Positions 46,521-58,748 of a stretch of 64,000 bases of DNA are shown one piece after another. The DNA is taken from positions 1,559,154 through 1,623,153 of the forward strand of contig NZ_MQWD01000001.1 of NCBI RefSeq assembly GCF_002283365.1. Reading direction: 5' to 3'. This DNA comes from Rubrivirga marina (GTDB taxonomy: Bacteria > Bacteroidota > Rhodothermia > Rhodothermales > Rubricoccaceae). The notes beneath the pieces were generated by a model. The model saw nothing but the letters and a program-made list of their open reading frames with translations. It had not been told where the DNA came from and did no database searches. Numbering within the stretch: position 1 is the stretch's first letter; every line of letters begins with the position of its first letter. Position numbers and translations under genes: made by a program.

Positions 46521-48605
46521 TCAGGCGGCGAGATCGGCCTCGATCTGGGCGATCGAGTCGCGGAGCTCGGCGGCCTTCTCGAACTCGAGGTTCTCCGCCG
46601 CCGCGTCCATCTCGCGCGTGAGCTGGGCCACGAGGTCCCGCTTCTGGTCGTCCGTGAGGTACTTCACGACGGGGTCCGCGACCTTCGGGAGCTGGTCGGG
46701 GCCGGCGTAGTAGCTCACCTTCTCCTTGGCCCGGCGCTCGTCCTGCTCCGCCTTGTGGTCGGCGATGGCCGTGCCGCGGCGGACGTCGTCGATCGACTTC
46801 GTAACCGTCATCGGCGTGATCCCGTGCTCCTCGTTGTAGGCCCGCTGGATGTCGCGGCGGCGGTCGGTCTCCTCCATCATGCGCGCCATCGAGTCCGTCA
46901 CGCGGTCGGCGTAGAGGACGACGAGGGAGTCGGCGTTGCGGGCGGCGCGGCCGGCGGTCTGGATCAAGGACCGCTCCGAGCGGAGGAACCCCTCCTTGTC
47001 GGCGTCGAGGATGGCCACGAGGTTGACCTCGGGCAGGTCGAGGCCCTCGCGGAGCAGGTTGATGCCGACGAGCACGTCGAACTCGCCGAGGCGGAGGTCC
47101 CGGAGGATGTCGACCCGCTCGAGCGCGTCGATGTCGGAGTGGAGGTACCGGACGCGGACGCCGAAGCTGTCGAGGTAGTCGGTGAGGTCCTCGGCCATCC
47201 GCTTCGTGAGCGTGGTGACCAGCACCCGTCCGCCGGCCTTGACGCGGTCGCGAATCTCCGCCAGCAGGTCGTCGATCTGGCCCTCGACGGGGCGGACCTC
47301 CACGTGCGGGTCGAGCACGCCGGTCGGCCGGATGATCTGCTCGACCACGACGCCGCCCGACGTCTCGAGCTCGTAGTCGGCCGGCGTGGCCGAGACGAAC
47401 GTGACGGCGTGGTGGAAGGTCTCGAACTCCTCGAACGTCAGCGGCCGGTTGTCCATGGCGCTCGGCAGCCGGAAGCCGTGCTCGACGAGGTTCAGCTTCC
47501 GCGCGCGGTCGCCGTTGTACATGCCGCGGACCTGCGGGACGGTCACGTGGCTCTCGTCGATCACGATCTGCCAGTCGTCGCCGTGGTTCTTCTGGAAGTA
47601 GTCGAGGAGGCAGTACGGGCGCGTGCCGGGCTCGCGACCGTCCATGTGGCGCGAGTAGTTCTCGATCCCGGAGCAGTACCCGATCTCCTTGATCATCTCG
47701 ATGTCGAAGAGCGTCCGCTGCTCCAGCCGCTCGGCGGCGACGAGGTTGCCGTCGTTGCGGAGGATGGCGAGCCGCCAGCGGAGCTCCTCCTGAATGCCGG
47801 CGATGGCGCGGTCGACTTGGTCCTGCGGCGTGACGAAGTGCTTGGCCGGGTAGATCGTGAGCGTGTCCTGCTCGAACGACAGCTCCTCGCCCGTGACCGG
47901 GTTGATCCGCGCGATCCGCTCGACCTCGTCGCCCCAGAACTGGATGCGGTAGGCCTGGTCCTCGAAGTAGGCCGGGAACACCTCGACCACGTCGCCGCGC
48001 ACGCGGAACGTGCCAGGCGTGAAGTCGACGTCGTTCCGGTTGTAGAACACGTGGACGAGCTCCATCAGCAGCTCGTCGCGGTCGCGCTCCTGGCCGGGCG
48101 AGACCTGGACGATCCGCTTTTTGTACTCGTCCGGGTTGCCGAGGCCGTAGATGCACGACACGGACGCCACGATGACCACGTCCTGCCGGCCCGAGACGAG
48201 CGCCGACGTGGCCCGGAGTCGGAGCCGGTCGATCTCCTCGTTGATCGCCATGTCCTTCTCGATGTACGTGTCGGACGAGACGATGTAGGCCTCGGGCTGG
48301 TAGTAGTCGTAGTAGGAGATGAAGAACTCGACGGCGTTCTCGGGGAAGAACTGCCGGAACTCGGCGTAGAGCTGGGCCGCGAGCGTCTTGTTGTGCGAGA
48401 TCACCAGCGTCGGCTTGCCGACGTTGCGGATGACGTTGGCCATCGTGAACGTCTTGCCGGTGCCCGTCGCGCCGAGGAGTGTCTGGTAGGGGTCGCCGCG
48501 GAAGAGGCCCTCGGTGAGCTCGCCGATGGCGCGGGGCTGGTCGCCCATCGGCTGGAACGCCGTCGAGAGCTTGAAGGGCGAGTCGATGCGGGTGATCGAG
48601 GCCAT
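46521..48605 (-). CDS. uvrB: Excinuclease ABC subunit B
   Basis: 694 residues. Damage-verifying helicase subunit of nucleotide excision repair, partner of UvrA and UvrC. Seen: start [19 protein letters not shown], Walker [17 protein letters not shown] (about 43-58), beta-hairpin [11 protein letters not shown] (about 95-105), helicase motifs IDESH and [20 protein letters not shown], and the C-terminal UVR motif [18 protein letters not shown]. Complete and conserved. The ATG at 48605 gives [11 protein letters not shown], close to standard. On its strand TAGACCGA is a possible promoter element about 70 bases upstream. Confidence 0.97.
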
Positions 48606-48709
48606 CGGGGTCCGTGGTGGGGCAGCCGGGAAGAATCGCACGCCGGGCTGACGACGGTGTGTCGCAGCCCTCGGTCTACCGGGCACCCCGCGTCGGGTTC
48701 GCCGTGGCC

Positions 48710-52575: not shown

Positions 52576-53661
52576 CTAGCGCGCCGCGACGAGGCGGGCG
52601 GTGCCCGGGTCCACGTCGGTCGGGGTCCCGGCGAGGAGGCCCGCGAGCCAGGCGTCGAACGAGACGCCCGCCGAGACTAGCGTGTACCGAGCACGGAGGA
52701 ACGTGTGCGCGTCGCCTTCGGCGAAGAACGTCCCCCACGACTCGGGAAGCTGGGCGCGGACGTCGCGGAGGCCGGCCGCGAACTCCTCATCGGTGATGGG
52801 GTCGCCCGGGGCCTGGCCGAAGCCGTAGAACTGCTGGAACACGTCGTCGCCGAGGTGGCTGGCGAGGCCGAACGTGGCGTCCGGGTAGCGCGTCGCGTAG
52901 TAGTCATAGACGCCCGGGAGCGCGTCGGGCTGGAAGAGCTGGGGGGCGGACGGGAGCGCGGCCGAGCCGTTGTAGAGCGTGACGACCTGCGTCACGAGCT
53001 GCGGGCTCAGGACGTTGTCGGCGAAGAACAGCGGGCCCGAGTCGTCGACGAGGAAGAGGTCGGCGTCGTCGAACGTCTGGGCCACGGCGTCGAAGTTGAA
53101 CAGCGTTCCGAGGCCGCCGGCCGACGAGCCGGCGAGGAGCACGCGGCTCTGCGTGCCGAGGCCGTCCTCGAGGAGGGCCAGCGCCCGCTTGACGTTCTGG
53201 TGGCCCACGAACTGCTGCGTGCCGTCGACGCCGGCCGCCTGGAGCAGCGTGTTGTTCGGGAAGCTCCCGGCGTGGACGTCGCCCGTGCAGTACGGCACGT
53301 AGACCACGTTCCAGTCGCCGACCGGGTTGGCGGCGGACGTGCTGAACACGCCGGCCTCGCCCGCCTGGGCCACGAGGCCGGCGAAGTCGGTGGCGCCGAA
53401 CGACGACGGGTTCGTCGAGCACGTCGCGCCGTTGAAGCAGGCGCCGCCTCCCTCGAGGTAAATCATCAGGTCGTCGGAGTCCTCTTGAAGGCGAACGCCG
53501 ATACCGGTCGGCGAGCCGTCGCGGCAGACGGAGCCCTCGACCTCGACGAACGTCCATTCGCCGGGGGCCACGTCGGCGAGCGGGCCCTCGGGCTCGGACG
53601 AGTCGCAGGACGTGAGGGCGAGCGCCGCGAGGGCGAGGGCGAAGAGCGAAAGGCGGGGCAT
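52576..53661 (-). CDS. Pectinacetylesterase-family lipoprotein
   Basis: 361 residues. Lipoprotein signal with LALTSC (Cys 19). The alpha/beta-hydrolase of pectin acetylesterase / NOTUM type is recognisable: LMIYLEGGGACFNGATC, VVYVPYCTGDVHAG, nucleophile elbow VLLAGSSAGGLGTLFNFD, the acid-region LVDDSGPLFF and the catalytic-type His in EGDAHTFLRARY. It probably deacetylates a polysaccharide or other ester at the cell surface. It is convergent with the exopolysaccharide-type operon, so a functional link (polymer deacetylation) is possible but unproven. The ATG at 53661 has TAGATTCG upstream. Confidence 0.85.
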   Translation of the reverse strand: MPRLSLFALALAALALTSCDSSEPEGPLADVAPGEWTFVEVEGSVCRDGSPTGIGVRLQEDSDDLMIYLEGGGACFNGATCSTNPSSFGATDFAGLVAQAGEAGVFSTSAANPVGDWNVVYVPYCTGDVHAGSFPNNTLLQAAGVDGTQQFVGHQNVKRALALLEDGLGTQSRVLLAGSSAGGLGTLFNFDAVAQTFDDADLFLVDDSGPLFFADNVLSPQLVTQVVTLYNGSAALPSAPQLFQPDALPGVYDYYATRYPDATFGLASHLGDDVFQQFYGFGQAPGDPITDEEFAAGLRDVRAQLPESWGTFFAEGDAHTFLRARYTLVSAGVSFDAWLAGLLAGTPTDVDPGTARLVAAR

Positions 53662-53684
53662 GGGGGGATCGGTGGACGCGGCCC

Positions 53685-53692
53685 CGAATCTA
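53685..53692 (-). promoter_or_regulatory. Putative -7 element TAGATTCG
   Basis: On the minus strand TAGATTCG is 23 bases before the pectinacetylesterase ATG; TTAACA lies 16 bases further upstream as a possible -35/-33 partner, the best spaced pair besides that at 60275. Confidence 0.45.
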
Positions 53693-53788
53693 CGTGTGGG
53701 GTGAACGGTGTTAAGGGGAATCCTCGGCCCCGCCGGGGCGGTTCGGGCCTCTCGAGGCCACGGCGGCCGGCCGACGCCGGGGCGCCGT

Positions 53789-53796
53789 TACCTTCT
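53789..53796 (+). promoter_or_regulatory. Putative -7 element TACCTTCT before McrB-like gene
   Basis: TACCTTCT, 20 bases upstream of the GTG start, same motif class as before the kinase, pyrR and rhodanese genes. Confidence 0.4.
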
Positions 53797-53816
53797 CTCG
53801 CCCCTCGCTCTGCGCC

Positions 53817-55550
53817 GTGACGTACTGGCTCTGGTCCGTGCCGCCCGACGTGTACCCGGCGGCCCTCCGCGCGGGGACGTTCGCGCTGTGGCGTCAGGGG
53901 CGCGCGCGGCTCGAGGAGGTCCGCCCCGGGGACCGGATCTTCGCGTACCTCCCGGGCCGGCAGGTCATCGCCGGGGAGTTTGAAGCGATCGGGCCACCGT
54001 TCGAGGACGCCACGGCGCTCGCCCCAGGTCGCCACCTTCCGCACCGGCTCCGCGTGCGTCCGGTCGCCGTGCTCCCAGAAGAGTTGTGGGTCCCGCGGGA
54101 CGGTGTCGCCGACGACCTCCGGGTCCTGGAGGAGTACTCGGAGCACGCACCGGAGACGCGGTTCCGGCGCGTCGTGCAACAGGTGCTGCACCCGCTCCCG
54201 CGCATCGACGGGACGGTCCTGTCGTTCGTCGTCCAGGCCCGCCTCGGCACCGATCCCGACGCGCTCATGGGGGCCGTCGAGGCGGTCCGCCAGGCGCGGG
54301 CCGAGGCGCTCGACGCGTCCCGTCGCCCCCCCGAGGCGGCGGAGCCTGCGCCCGCCTCGGTCGTGGCCGAAGCCTCGGTGGGCTACGTCGCTCCGGAGGA
54401 TTTCGACCGAGCAGCGGCGATGGAGCGGTTGCTGGGCGATCTCGCGTCGAGGGGCTACCGCTACGCCCCGTGGGCCGTGGCCGCTTACGTGACCGCCCTC
54501 CGCACCAAGCCGTTCGTCCTGTTGGCCGGCGTGACCGGAGTCGGGAAGAGCCGCCTGCCCGTCCTCGTCGCGGAGGCGACGGGCGGCACGTCGACAGTGC
54601 TCCCCGTCCGTCCCGACTGGACCGATCCGGCCGAGACAATGGGGTTCGTAGATCTCGGTGGACGGTTTCGTCCCGGTGCTGTGCTCCGTGCGGCGCACGG
54701 GGCCGCCGAGGACCCCGATCGGTTCCACACGCTCGTGTTCGATGAGATGAATCTTGGGCGTCCGGAGCACTATCTCGCCGAGGTGCTGAGCCGAATCGAA
54801 CAGCGTGCTCCGGCGCCCGGTGGCTACGAGAGCCCTCCGCTCTTGACCGAGACGCTTCAGGCCGGCGATGCCCTCTGGCAGGCCGTCCGCCTGCCGCCGA
54901 CGCTCGGTCTCGTCGGGACCGTCAACGTGGACGAGAGCGCGCACGCGTTCAGCCGGAAGGTGCTCGACCGCGCGTTCGTGATCGAGCTCGTCGCGAGGGA
55001 CCTCGGCGACTGGCAGAGCGCGTCCGTCGAGGAGTCCACCGACCGGTGGCCGGCCGAGGCATGGACGCCGCGGGCCGTCCGCCTCGGCGAGCTGACCGGT
55101 CTGACCGGCGACGAGCACGCGTCGGTCGCCCGCACGGTCGGTGCCGTCACCGAGGCGGGCCACGTTCTCGCCCCGTCCGGCCTCGGCGTGGGCTACCGGA
55201 CGCGCGACGAGGCGGCGCTGTTCGTGCTGCACGCGGCGGAGGCGCCGGGCGCGTTCCGGGACGAGGCGGAGGCGCCCGTCGACCCGCTCGACCTGGCGCT
55301 TCTGACGAAGCTGGTGCCTCGCCTGGATGGCGCCCGCTCGGCCGCTCGCTCGGCGGCCTACGGCCTGCTCGGCTGGACCCTCGATGGCTCCACCGCCGAC
55401 GCCCGGGACGCCGAACGGATCGTCGACGACTGGATCACCGACGGCCGACCGGAGGCCCTCCCGGACGCGCGCTTCCCTCGGACCGCCGCCCGCCTCGCCC
55501 GGATCGTCGAAGGCGCGCTCGACGACGGAGTCGCCTCGTTCTGGGGCTAG
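53817..55550 (+). CDS. EVE-domain McrB-like AAA+ ATPase
   Basis: 577 residues. Residues about 1-140 are EVE/PUA-like: MTYWLWSVPPDVYPAAL, LEEVRPGDRIFAYLPGRQVI and the HRLRVRPVAVLPEELWV strand, a fold that reads modified bases. After a Pro/Ala linker comes an AAA+ domain of the McrB group: Walker A LLAGVTGVGKSRLPVL (Lys about 244), Walker B TLVFDEMNLGRPEHYL (Asp/Glu 309-310), GTVNVDESAHAFSRKVLDRA (Asn about 370) and a likely Arg finger. Start is GTG 53817, because the EVE domain starts there. McrB-type rings translocate DNA and activate a nuclease subunit after sensing modified DNA. The nuclease-type partner is at 56225; a GNAT gene on the other strand lies between. Likely a type IV restriction defence ATPase. 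Confidence 0.87.
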   Translation: MTYWLWSVPPDVYPAALRAGTFALWRQGRARLEEVRPGDRIFAYLPGRQVIAGEFEAIGPPFEDATALAPGRHLPHRLRVRPVAVLPEELWVPRDGVADDLRVLEEYSEHAPETRFRRVVQQVLHPLPRIDGTVLSFVVQARLGTDPDALMGAVEAVRQARAEALDASRRPPEAAEPAPASVVAEASVGYVAPEDFDRAAAMERLLGDLASRGYRYAPWAVAAYVTALRTKPFVLLAGVTGVGKSRLPVLVAEATGGTSTVLPVRPDWTDPAETMGFVDLGGRFRPGAVLRAAHGAAEDPDRFHTLVFDEMNLGRPEHYLAEVLSRIEQRAPAPGGYESPPLLTETLQAGDALWQAVRLPPTLGLVGTVNVDESAHAFSRKVLDRAFVIELVARDLGDWQSASVEESTDRWPAEAWTPRAVRLGELTGLTGDEHASVARTVGAVTEAGHVLAPSGLGVGYRTRDEAALFVLHAAEAPGAFRDEAEAPVDPLDLALLTKLVPRLDGARSAARSAAYGLLGWTLDGSTADARDAERIVDDWITDGRPEALPDARFPRTAARLARIVEGALDDGVASFWG

Positions 55551-55559
55551 GCGTGAGCG

Positions 55560-56192
55560 TCAGGAACGGGCGGATCGGGAAGGCCGGCCCTCTGACGTCC
55601 CACCCCTTCGCATCGCTCGTCGGATCTGGTCGGCCGTCTCCACGAAATCGGCGGCCGACTCGCTGACCGCGGGGTCGACGGGGAGGTGGAGGTCCATCAC
55701 GAGATCCTGGTCGCTGCCCGAGGAGGTGGCCCCGAGGCGATGGAGCCAGTACGTCATCCGTTCGTTTTCGCGCCCGACGACGCCACGGAGCGTCTGCACG
55801 CCGACGCTCGGAGCGACGACGGCGAGGACCGCCAGCAGCAGTTGCCCCACCCCGTGGCCCTGCGCCGTGTCGAGCACCGTCAGGGAGAACTCCGCGATCG
55901 ACGGCGCTTCCTTGAGCCGGATGAACCGGCCGACGCCGAAGCCGGGCGCGTCGGGGGCCTGGAGGTCGAGGGCGCCCCACGCCACGTGATCGTGCCCGTC
56001 GACCTCGGTGAGGTAGCGGAGGTGGGCGTCGCTGAGGGTGGAGACCGACCCGAGAAAGCGGAGCCGGCGCGAGTCGGCCGAGAGCTCGTCGAAGCCGGCC
56101 GCGAGTCGGTCCTTGTCAGCCGCGACGACCGGGCGGAGGACGACGGGGCGCCCGTCTCGGAGCGTCAGCCGGAGGACGGGCGGAGTGGACAT
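55560..56192 (-). CDS. GNAT-family acetyltransferase between the two defence genes
   Basis: 210 residues. N-terminal RLTLRDGRPVVLRPVVAADK, DELSADSRRLRFLGSV, and the acetyl-CoA segment FSLTVLDTAQGHGVGQLLLA (Q/GxGxG/A type) are typical of GNATs, close to those fused to acyl-CoA synthetase (Pat-like). C-terminal residues 165-210 are a less conserved tail. It lies on the opposite strand between the McrB-like and DUF2357 genes, 9 bases from the former's stop and 32 bases from the latter's start. It may be a passenger gene, a regulator by protein acetylation, or a defence accessory; its conservation in other genomes would decide. Confidence 0.8.
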   Translation of the reverse strand: MSTPPVLRLTLRDGRPVVLRPVVAADKDRLAAGFDELSADSRRLRFLGSVSTLSDAHLRYLTEVDGHDHVAWGALDLQAPDAPGFGVGRFIRLKEAPSIAEFSLTVLDTAQGHGVGQLLLAVLAVVAPSVGVQTLRGVVGRENERMTYWLHRLGATSSGSDQDLVMDLHLPVDPAVSESAADFVETADQIRRAMRRGGTSEGRPSRSARS

Positions 56193-56224
56193 GGCACGGC
56201 GTCGTAGGGGCGGTAGCATACGGC

Positions 56225-57823
56225 GTGGAGACCCTGTTCACCGTCGACTCCGCCCGCGTCCGCCTGACGTGGAGCGGCCCCCGCCCGGCTCCCCCGGCCG
56301 TGGCCCCCATGGCCGTCACCGTCCTCGCCGCCGAGGACCTCCGAGTGACGACGGCCGGTGGCTCGCATGCCATCGCGTTGGAGGAAGAGACGACGTACCT
56401 CGTCCTTGTCGAGGGCCGAGACGACCAAGCCGTCGTGCTGGAGCACCGGGACCCCGTCGTCACCTCTGGACTGGCGTCGGCGAATGAGGGTCGCGTGCTC
56501 CACGGGCGCATCCGAGTCGGGTCGCAAGCGGGGAGAATCCGCTTCGATGTCCGATCCGGGAGCACAACTCTGTTTCGACTTGAGATGGACGTGCTCCCGA
56601 CAAAGTTGAACGGTGCGGAGGTGTCGGCGATGCGGTCCGAGGTGGAGGCGGCGGCCGCGGGTCTGGCGGTCGCTGCGCTCCGTCCGACGACCGTCGCGGT
56701 CGAGCGGGGGGGCGAGGTGCCGTCGGTGCCAGTCTGGCTCGCCGCCCTCGGCCAGTCCGTCGAGCGGCTGGCCGAGGCGGTGCGGGAGATCGACCGACGG
56801 CCGGTGCTCGACGCCGCGCGTTCGGTCTCTGGGCAGCGACCCGGGCGAATCCGGCGCCCCTCGGCGGAGACCTGGCGGGCGGCGCGGCGACGGGGGCTGG
56901 CGGGGCCGACGCTCCCGGCACGACCGGCCCACCTCTCGTCTGACACGCCCGCGCACCGCTGGCTGGCCGCCCGCCTCGGTGTGGTCGCACACCGTCTCCG
57001 GGTCCTGCTCCGGCACGAGGGAGCACGCCGGTCGAGTGCCCGGCGAGAGCGTGTGGCTCGCGACCTCAGAGCCTTGTTGGCCGAAGTCGATTCGCTCCGG
57101 AAAGGGACGCTGATGGAAACGGTCGGAGCACGGGCGCCCTCGGTCCCGCCCCTCGTGCTCCGGCGGCATCCGGTGTACGCCGCCGCCTACGACGCGCTCC
57201 GCCAGCTCGACCGCGGGATCGACCTCCGGTCCGGGAGCCTCGACGTGGCGACCCAAGACCTCGCGGTCCTCTTCGAGACCTGGGTCGCGCTCGCCGTCGT
57301 CCGCGTGTTCGCCGACGTGCTCGGAGCGGAGCCGCCTGCCCGTCCGTTCGGCGTCGACGCAGTGGGGACCGACGTGAGGCTGCGGCGGGGGCGGAGCCAC
57401 GGCGTCCGCCTCCAAGGCCGCGGGATGGACGTCGAGATCGTCAACAACCCACGCTTCCCGGCGCCACCCGCGCTGCTCACCCAGCGGCCGGACCTCCTCG
57501 TCACGATCCGCCACGGCGGTACGACCCGACGCGTCGTGCTCGACGCGAAGTACCGTCGCGACGACTCCGCCGCGTACCGCCGCCGGCACGGCGCGGCGGG
57601 GCCACCCGAGGACGCGCTCGGCACGCTCCACCGCTATCGCGACGCCATCGTCGAGGGGCCGCCCGTCGAGATCGCTGCCGCCCTGTTTCCAGGCACGGCC
57701 GACGACGCATTCTTCCGATCCCGCCTGTGGACGAGCCTCGGGAGCCTCGGCGTGGGCGCCATTCCCTTCCGCCCCGGCGACCTCGGCGCGCTCACCCGGT
57801 TCGTCGCCGACCTTACTGAATAA
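56225..57823 (+). CDS. DUF2357 / McrC-like PD-(D/E)xK nuclease
   Basis: 532 residues from GTG 56225. The N-terminal half is beta-rich (VLVEGRDDQAVVLEHRDP...) like DUF2357; the middle has the family helix LFETWVALAVVRVFADVL. The C-terminal part is a PD-(D/E)xK nuclease: PDLLVTI (Asp about 423), VVLDAKYRRDD (Asp about 440, Lys 442), and LGTLHRYRDAI (Tyr/Arg as in McrC). Likely the DNA-cleaving subunit activated by the EVE-McrB ATPase. The start is preceded by TAGCATAC, so it may have its own promoter, needed because an antisense gene separates it from the ATPase gene. Its 3' end overlaps the convergent GDPD gene by 11 bases. Confidence 0.82.
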   Translation: METLFTVDSARVRLTWSGPRPAPPAVAPMAVTVLAAEDLRVTTAGGSHAIALEEETTYLVLVEGRDDQAVVLEHRDPVVTSGLASANEGRVLHGRIRVGSQAGRIRFDVRSGSTTLFRLEMDVLPTKLNGAEVSAMRSEVEAAAAGLAVAALRPTTVAVERGGEVPSVPVWLAALGQSVERLAEAVREIDRRPVLDAARSVSGQRPGRIRRPSAETWRAARRRGLAGPTLPARPAHLSSDTPAHRWLAARLGVVAHRLRVLLRHEGARRSSARRERVARDLRALLAEVDSLRKGTLMETVGARAPSVPPLVLRRHPVYAAAYDALRQLDRGIDLRSGSLDVATQDLAVLFETWVALAVVRVFADVLGAEPPARPFGVDAVGTDVRLRRGRSHGVRLQGRGMDVEIVNNPRFPAPPALLTQRPDLLVTIRHGGTTRRVVLDAKYRRDDSAAYRRRHGAAGPPEDALGTLHRYRDAIVEGPPVEIAAALFPGTADDAFFRSRLWTSLGSLGVGAIPFRPGDLGALTRFVADLTE

Positions 57824-58748
57824 GGTTGGCTTCGCGCGCCGCCAGCGCGGCGAGCGGGACCTGGTCGGTCGAGAGCACGTCGGCGCCCGTCGCGAGGATC
57901 GCGTCGTACGGCTCGGGCGAGGACGCTGCGCGGGCCGCGGCGTCGATGGCGCCGAACGCCCCCGCCTGCGCCCGGATGCCCACCGCGTGGAGCCGGTCGA
58001 CGACGGTCGGGTTCGGGACGCCGACCCCGGTCCAGGCGATCACGCGTCCCAGGTCGACGGGGGAGGCGAGCAGGGCGTCCACCTCGGCCGGCGTCTCGGC
58101 GGTCGCGGAGACGACGAGGTCCGGGGCGATCGCGAACAGCCGCTCGTGGTCCTCCAGGGAGTACGTGATGACGGCCACGCGGTCGGCCGCGTCGTGCTGG
58201 CGGATGGACGCGACGAGCTCCTCGTAGGGCACGTCCGGCTTGACGTCGAGCAGGAGGACGGCCCGGCCGTCGGCCCAGGCGAGGGCTTCCAGCAGCGTCG
58301 GCACGCGGAACGTCGTGAGGAGGGAGTCCTCCGTGACGAGGCGGAGGCGGCGGATCTGCGCGAACGTCGTCTGGTCGACGCGGCCCGTGCCGGTCGTCGT
58401 CCGGTCGAGCGTCTCGTCGTGCATGAGGACCAGGACGCCGTCGGCCGTCCGTCGGACGTCGGTCTCGATGAGGGCCGGCGCGTGGTTGAGCGCGTACTCG
58501 AACGTCTCGACCGCGTTCTCGGGGAGCGCCCGCTGCGGCCCGCCGCGGTGCGCCGAGACGAGGACCGGCGCCGACGCCGTCCACCGGAGCGCCGAGGCGA
58601 GCTCCGCCGCCGAGTCGTAGTCGCGGTAGTGGACCGACGAGACCGGCGTGCGGACCCGGTCGGCCGGCCGCTCCTCCAGCCCGAGCGGGCGCGGCGAGCC
58701 GCACGCGCCGACGACGAGCGCCAGCAGGACGAGGGCGAGGCGCGTCAC
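57813..58748 (-). CDS. Glycerophosphodiester phosphodiesterase lipoprotein
   Basis: 311 residues from GTG 58748. Lipoprotein signal with LVVGAC (Cys 16). The GDPD TIM barrel is clear: SAHRGGPQRALPENAVETFE (catalytic His, metal Glu), IETDVRRTADGVLVLMHDET (Glu/Asp ligands, second catalytic His), LLLDVKPDVPYEEL. It hydrolyses glycerophosphodiesters to glycerol 3-phosphate and an alcohol at the envelope. The start overlaps the stop of sufE by four bases. The 3' end overlaps the convergent nuclease gene by 11 bases. Confidence 0.92.
   Translation of the reverse strand: MTRLALVLLALVVGACGSPRPLGLEERPADRVRTPVSSVHYRDYDSAAELASALRWTASAPVLVSAHRGGPQRALPENAVETFEYALNHAPALIETDVRRTADGVLVLMHDETLDRTTTGTGRVDQTTFAQIRRLRLVTEDSLLTTFRVPTLLEALAWADGRAVLLLDVKPDVPYEELVASIRQHDAADRVAVITYSLEDHERLFAIAPDLVVSATAETPAEVDALLASPVDLGRVIAWTGVGVPNPTVVDRLHAVGIRAQAGAFGAIDAAARAASSPEPYDAILATGADVLSTDQVPLAALAAREANLIQ

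Follow-up and report, generated by a model that had tools for sequence, protein, structure and literature searches.

The window, a 64,000-nt stretch of the Rubrivirga marina genome, carries a motor gene and a nuclease gene with an antisense acetyltransferase (GNAT) gene between them. We favour, with a probability of about 0.55, the reading that the pair is a chromosomal, vertically inherited modification-dependent (type IV-like) nuclease of the NxD EVE-McrB/McrC kind and that the GNAT is a co-expressed and selected neighbour, which the pair does not require. All three open reading frames were recovered where the sequence-only reading had placed them, with the GNAT gene on the opposite strand.

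Products of the three genes

The motor gene (53817–55550, plus strand) encodes an EVE-McrB-type AAA+ ATPase/GTPase of 577 aa, which was analysed using Pfam, a PDB profile search, AlphaFold and Foldseek, motif inspection, and PADLOC. It comprises an EVE reader (residues ~1–145), linker helices, an AAA+ domain (~198–400) and a C-terminal helical domain. Both Pfam matches, EVE (E-value 0.0044) and AAA_5 (5.7e-4), fell under the curated cut-offs. A profile built from 18 homologues matched the EVE structure PH1033 (7.6e-6) and E. coli McrB (5e-4) among PDB sequences, and the AlphaFold model (pLDDT 84) retrieved PH1033 with a TM-score of 0.81 of the target in Foldseek, as well as E. coli McrB. Given these profile and fold matches, the earlier proposal of an EVE domain fused to a McrB-type motor stands despite the low Pfam scores, with the EVE domain as the fused reader of modified bases. 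Walker A (GVTGVGKS) and Walker B (LVFDEMN) are present, and the Nx(x)D signature of McrB-type motors occurs as the NxD variant GTVNVDE. Against PADLOC, the protein matched PDC-M26A (1.1e-34), a candidate defence protein class.

The nuclease gene (56225–57823, plus strand) encodes 532 aa and is the sole PF04411 protein of the genome. Pfam identified the DUF2357 domain (residues 94–323; 3.5e-16) and the PD-(D/E)xK domain PDDEXK_7 (349–491; 7.5e-20), the combination that defines a McrC partner. The PD...DAKY motif of the latter is intact and invariant across homologues, so that the predicted McrC-type assignment was confirmed. A search of PDB sequences with the nuclease profile gave no match.

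The GNAT gene (55560–56192, minus strand, extendable to 56219) encodes a stand-alone protein of 210 aa. The start is probably the ATG at 56192, since the start of the extended version does not keep the reading frame in genome G006. The product matched the NCBIfam Pat model (3.6e-27) and is closest to Pat lysine acetyltransferases, both in the PDB search (4ava/4orf) and by Foldseek of its AlphaFold model (4avb, 2.6e-16). In the alignment, the acetyl-CoA loop Q-G-H-G-V-G, which follows the [QR]xxGx[GA] pattern, and Glu101 are invariant in eight orthologues; we take this glutamate, the catalytic one, to align with the Glu235 region of Mycobacterium tuberculosis Pat. The GNAT is thus a predicted Pat-type protein lysine acetyltransferase with intact motifs. 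It shares the GNAT fold, acetyl-CoA loop and catalytic glutamate with M. tuberculosis Rv0998, Streptomyces lividans PatA and E. coli PatZ, but it lacks their cAMP-binding or acyl-CoA synthetase domain and lies antisense between two subunit genes. Its relatives in families f7, f57 and f10 (L111, L122–L125) have no motor or nuclease nearby. Those of f57 and f7 (L111, L123 and L124) share a different neighbourhood, with a peptidase C26 gene and a gene for a protein of ~600–650 aa.

Like the McrBC systems of E. coli and Thermococcus, the window pair consists of an AAA+ motor with a fused base reader and a partner with a DUF2357 stalk and a PD-(D/E)xK domain, and the AAA+ fold is the same as in E. 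coli McrB by Foldseek. It differs from McrBC in having an EVE reader rather than DUF3578 and an NxD rather than an NxxD motif, and in that its genes are split by the antisense GNAT and are unlinked in some relatives. EVE-McrB proteins, in which EVE is fused to a McrB motor as in the window, were reported from nearly 300 genera (Bell et al. 2020, PMC7641849). The available part of that report does not mention a GNAT between motor and nuclease, and the (PIN)-GNAT-EVE proteins it describes are a different fusion family. Derivation of the window GNAT from such a PIN-GNAT-EVE fusion was rejected, as it is a separate gene of Pat type. The signature GTVN[VM]DE, either GTVNVDE or GTVNMDE, is present in all 23 motor homologues of the order and is common to the NxD branch of McrB and the CoCoNuTs (Bell et al. 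2024, PMC11090510). As judged from sequence, the motor belongs to this NxD branch, which also includes CoCoNuTs. The window system shows the NxD motif of CoCoNuTs but not their long McrB-fused coiled-coil (the motor has 577 aa, with short linker helices in the model), and it has no cold-shock or HEPN parts. As the PD-(D/E)xK motif is also intact, we classify it as a non-CoCoNuT member of the branch. The 2024 census lists no characterised McrB of the NxD branch, and some systems of the branch are predicted to target RNA (PMC11090510). The target of the window's pair may be DNA or RNA.

Distribution, linkage and history

Gene order was surveyed across 114 genomes of the order, ignoring two extra weak motor matches. 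The motor was found in 23 genomes, all of which also carry the nuclease, and the nuclease without the motor occurred only in G418, a genome that is 77% complete. Some 80% of genomes in the order lack the pair. Within the window's family (f1), both genes are present in seven of nine genomes, and motor, GNAT and nuclease are all missing from the other two (G002 and G003). Six of these seven have the antisense GNAT inside the pair, namely four species of the same genus, G005 and G001. For G001, the triad spans a contig break that was bridged by a 17-bp overlap of contig ends, and the GNAT contig encodes the nuclease N-terminus. In the seventh (G004), the GNAT is missing and 2 bp separate motor from nuclease. 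In sister family f13, the triad is present in two (G421 and G422) of three pair-bearing genomes, the exception being G347. The sequence-only reading had suggested that the ATPase–GNAT–nuclease order might be conserved and had named absence of the GNAT from all homologous loci as the outcome that would speak against it. We looked for that outcome and found instead that the triad is kept in 8 of the 10 pair-bearing genomes of the two families.

All seven genomes of family f2 (genus g5), which appears to be Salinibacter-like, carry the pair 2–4 bp apart without a GNAT, and 2–4 bp is also the motor–nuclease junction of the order's GNAT-less adjacent loci in general. Where the junction of a triad is resolved, the gap is 637–856 bp and holds the antisense GNAT, whose end lies −4 to 149 bp from that of the motor gene (convergent stops). 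A scan of public genomes yielded 80 kept loci from many phyla, in which the nuclease mostly lies next to the motor and a Rubrivirga MAG is alone in having a GNAT at the junction. A literature search for a GNAT with McrBC returned nothing describing this arrangement. Among the loci, three of Saccharibacillus (L204, L222 and L233) have a motor homologue that is not directly followed by a nuclease, L233 having a nuclease homologue upstream on the opposite strand, and Paenibacillus sp. J31TS4 (L188) has two motor–nuclease pairs in tandem.

Motor and nuclease are unlinked in six genomes of the order. They are 423 kb apart in G038 (L044/L119) and 11.5 kb apart in G187 (L043/L118), each a single contig, and they lie on different contigs in G227 (L045/L120), G104 (L051/L121), G410 (L117/L116) and G411 (L113/L112), where other genes occupy the place expected for the partner. 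The adjacency of mcrB and mcrC in one operon, which is found neither in the triads nor in these six genomes, is a customary rather than a mechanistic feature of McrBC. Retention of both genes after separation argues for joint action in trans, with neither needing the other's promoter. The nuclease is still beside the GDPD gene in G410, G411 and G418. The ancestral neighbourhood consists of one half with the motor near uvrB and another with the nuclease near GDPD.

In the window, the neighbours encode UvrB, a glycosyltransferase, a pectinacetylesterase, GDPD, SufE, a rhodanese and a TonB receptor, and those for UvrB, GDPD, SufE and rhodanese are also conserved. None gave a convincing match in PADLOC, the UvrB helicase matches being generic. 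With such ordinary neighbours, the locus is not a defence island. The uvrB gene (46848–48641, minus strand) is close to the motor in f1, f13, f2 and one f4 genome (L036, L039, L108, L046–L050 and L119). Two f13 loci (L109 and L042) have two or three tandem pectinacetylesterase-like genes beside the motor, and the window has one (52576–53661). There is no methyltransferase gene beside the pair, and no avoidance of m5C methyltransferases by pair-bearing genomes was seen (8 of 24 with the pair, 28 of 90 without).

In the rpoB tree, f13 is sister to f1 (100/100), and the rpoB, motor and nuclease trees concur on all well-supported clades compared. In both gene trees, G004 pairs with G005, and G347 with G421, at 100% support, though G004 and G347 lack the GNAT. 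Acquisition of the GNAT-less loci from another lineage was rejected, as a clade of GNAT-bearing nucleases had a p-AU of 1.2e-9 in the AU test. Since the gene trees track the rpoB tree, the data fit best a single insertion of the GNAT into a 2–4 bp junction in the common ancestor of f1 and f13, with two clean losses and, most simply, one loss of all three genes in genus g3. The GNAT tree is weakly resolved, with the eight triad GNATs on one side of a low-support branch (58/34), and f13 may have acquired its GNAT separately. A phage-borne or viral origin was rejected, as the GNAT had no viral match and the motor only remote ones (~30% identity). Purifying selection acts on all three genes, with within-genus Nei–Gojobori dN/dS values of 0.16–0.27 (motor), 0.24–0.35 (GNAT) and 0.30–0.35 (nuclease); the full range for the GNAT is 0.24–0.47, and larger distances are near saturation.

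The element between the divergent genes

The sequence-only reading had also pointed to a promoter-like sequence, TAGCATAC, before the nuclease gene. This octamer (56214–56221) lies inside the pseudo-symmetric, −10-like 10-mer GTAGCATACG (56213–56222), between the divergent GNAT and nuclease starts. In G000, G007, G008, G006 and G005, which represent two genera, the 10-mer shows no variation and occupies positions −12 to −3 relative to the nuclease start. The alignment of the GNAT–nuclease gap from five triads has ten consecutive invariant columns, compared with 1 of 23 further upstream. The distance of the element from the nuclease start is constant, and that from the GNAT start varies, being 28 nt in G000 and about 15 nt in G005. 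Each of the four same-genus genomes holds one or two copies of the 10-mer, which is followed closely by a start codon at the nuclease gene and at one other site, in G008. Being invariant and at a fixed distance, the sequence is borne out as a conserved element, far from chance. G001 has GTAGTCTACG, located further upstream, and GTAGCATACG is missing from the f13 triads.

Reading towards the nuclease, the element contains TAGCAT (56214–56219), and towards the GNAT, TATGCT (56220–56215). The −11A and −7T positions of the two coincide and the predicted transcription start sites are 18 bp apart, which is the geometry described for the −10 elements of bidirectional promoters (PMC10268837). As GTAGCATACG is invariant, nearly unique genome-wide and symmetric, a single divergent promoter with an 18-bp bidirectional −10 element plausibly serves both GNAT and nuclease. 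In that case the nuclease mRNA would lack a leader. Another arrangement is commoner in this genome, where TANNNT motifs usually peak ~27–34 nt before starts. With a single copy in 464 kb and the TANNNT peak elsewhere, TAGCATAC was rejected as a general promoter word of the genome. A sigma-70 promoter scan found nothing at the GNAT–nuclease gap, and a terminator scan of 53600–58000 found no terminator-like site.

Function of the pair and role of the acetyltransferase

By analogy with McrBC of E. coli and Thermococcus, the EVE domain would read a modified base and the AAA+ domain would form an NTP-driven ring, onto which the DUF2357 stalk of the nuclease would dock and which it would stimulate, leaving the PD-(D/E)xK domain to cut. 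We infer modification-dependent restriction by the pair from this homology. A single insertion of the Pat-type GNAT at the junction, in the last ancestor shared by f1 and f13, would have broken the operon, and the promoter-like element left in front of the nuclease would probably serve the GNAT in the divergent direction as well. As the pair elsewhere is adjacent without a GNAT, or unlinked yet co-occurring (23/23), the pair does not generally need the GNAT, which would be an expressed and selected neighbour. Of the earlier proposal of a type IV system, the EVE-McrB/McrC architecture is upheld by domains, motifs and folds; the GNAT as a functional part of it is not, given its loss from G004 and G347 with the pair kept, its absence beside the pair in the other lineages examined, and the position of its relatives in other families away from motor and nuclease. 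An accessory role is possible in lineages that retain the GNAT, and a general one cannot be. Retention of the order in 8 of 10 genomes and the abutment of GNAT and motor ends exceed what a casual neighbour would lead one to expect, but the uvrB, GDPD, SufE and rhodanese genes have been retained nearby too. Further points against our preferred reading are a stable vertical descent next to uvrB that one would not usually expect of a defence system, the lack of an adjacent methyltransferase and of m5C methyltransferase avoidance, and the f13 triads without GTAGCATACG.

The inheritance pattern bears on a rather unlikely alternative, in which the pair is a resident nuclease for nucleic-acid quality control or repair, which attacks DNA or RNA carrying damage or modifications and is not mainly directed against phages. 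Such a function would suit the long persistence at one chromosomal place by uvrB in four families, the retention of the pair in 7/7 Salinibacter-like (g5) genomes and 4/4 same-genus species, and the keeping of both genes even if unlinked. Absence from about 80% of the order and joint loss in g3 mean that the pair is not essential, however, and relatives occur on plasmids, the nuclease evolves faster than the motor, and the motor falls into a candidate defence class of PADLOC. We consider it unlikely that the GNAT is a working accessory that acetylates lysines of the motor, the nuclease or host proteins so as to hold back or permit nuclease activity, with joint production ensured by the shared promoter. 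The order kept in two families, the invariant catalytic glutamate and acetyl-CoA loop under purifying selection, and the symmetric promoter-like element argue for it, and the intact pairs of G004 and G347, the absence of the GNAT wherever else the pair occurs and its unlinked homologues elsewhere argue against. A more specific version, in which EVE-McrBC in two families recruited the acetyltransferase via the symmetric bidirectional promoter so that acetylation, reporting acetyl-CoA status, would set nuclease activity, is distinctly doubtful. Least of all do we expect that motor and nuclease are co-transcribed through the GNAT, whose own transcription would lower motor expression by antisense overlap. 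The gene order is that of a noncontiguous operon, as already described elsewhere (PMC7154746), the scanned region is free of terminator-like sites, and transcripts with such close convergent stops should overlap, but a conserved promoter-like element precedes the nuclease itself, which in other families is kept unlinked from the motor gene.

Under our preferred reading, the window pair is a compact member of the NxD branch with an EVE reader, an intact nuclease motif and deep vertical inheritance. Its natural versions with and without the GNAT, and linked and unlinked, would allow clean comparisons of the function of this branch and of subunit linkage, and the conserved, plausibly shared promoter would make a regulatory role of the GNAT directly testable.
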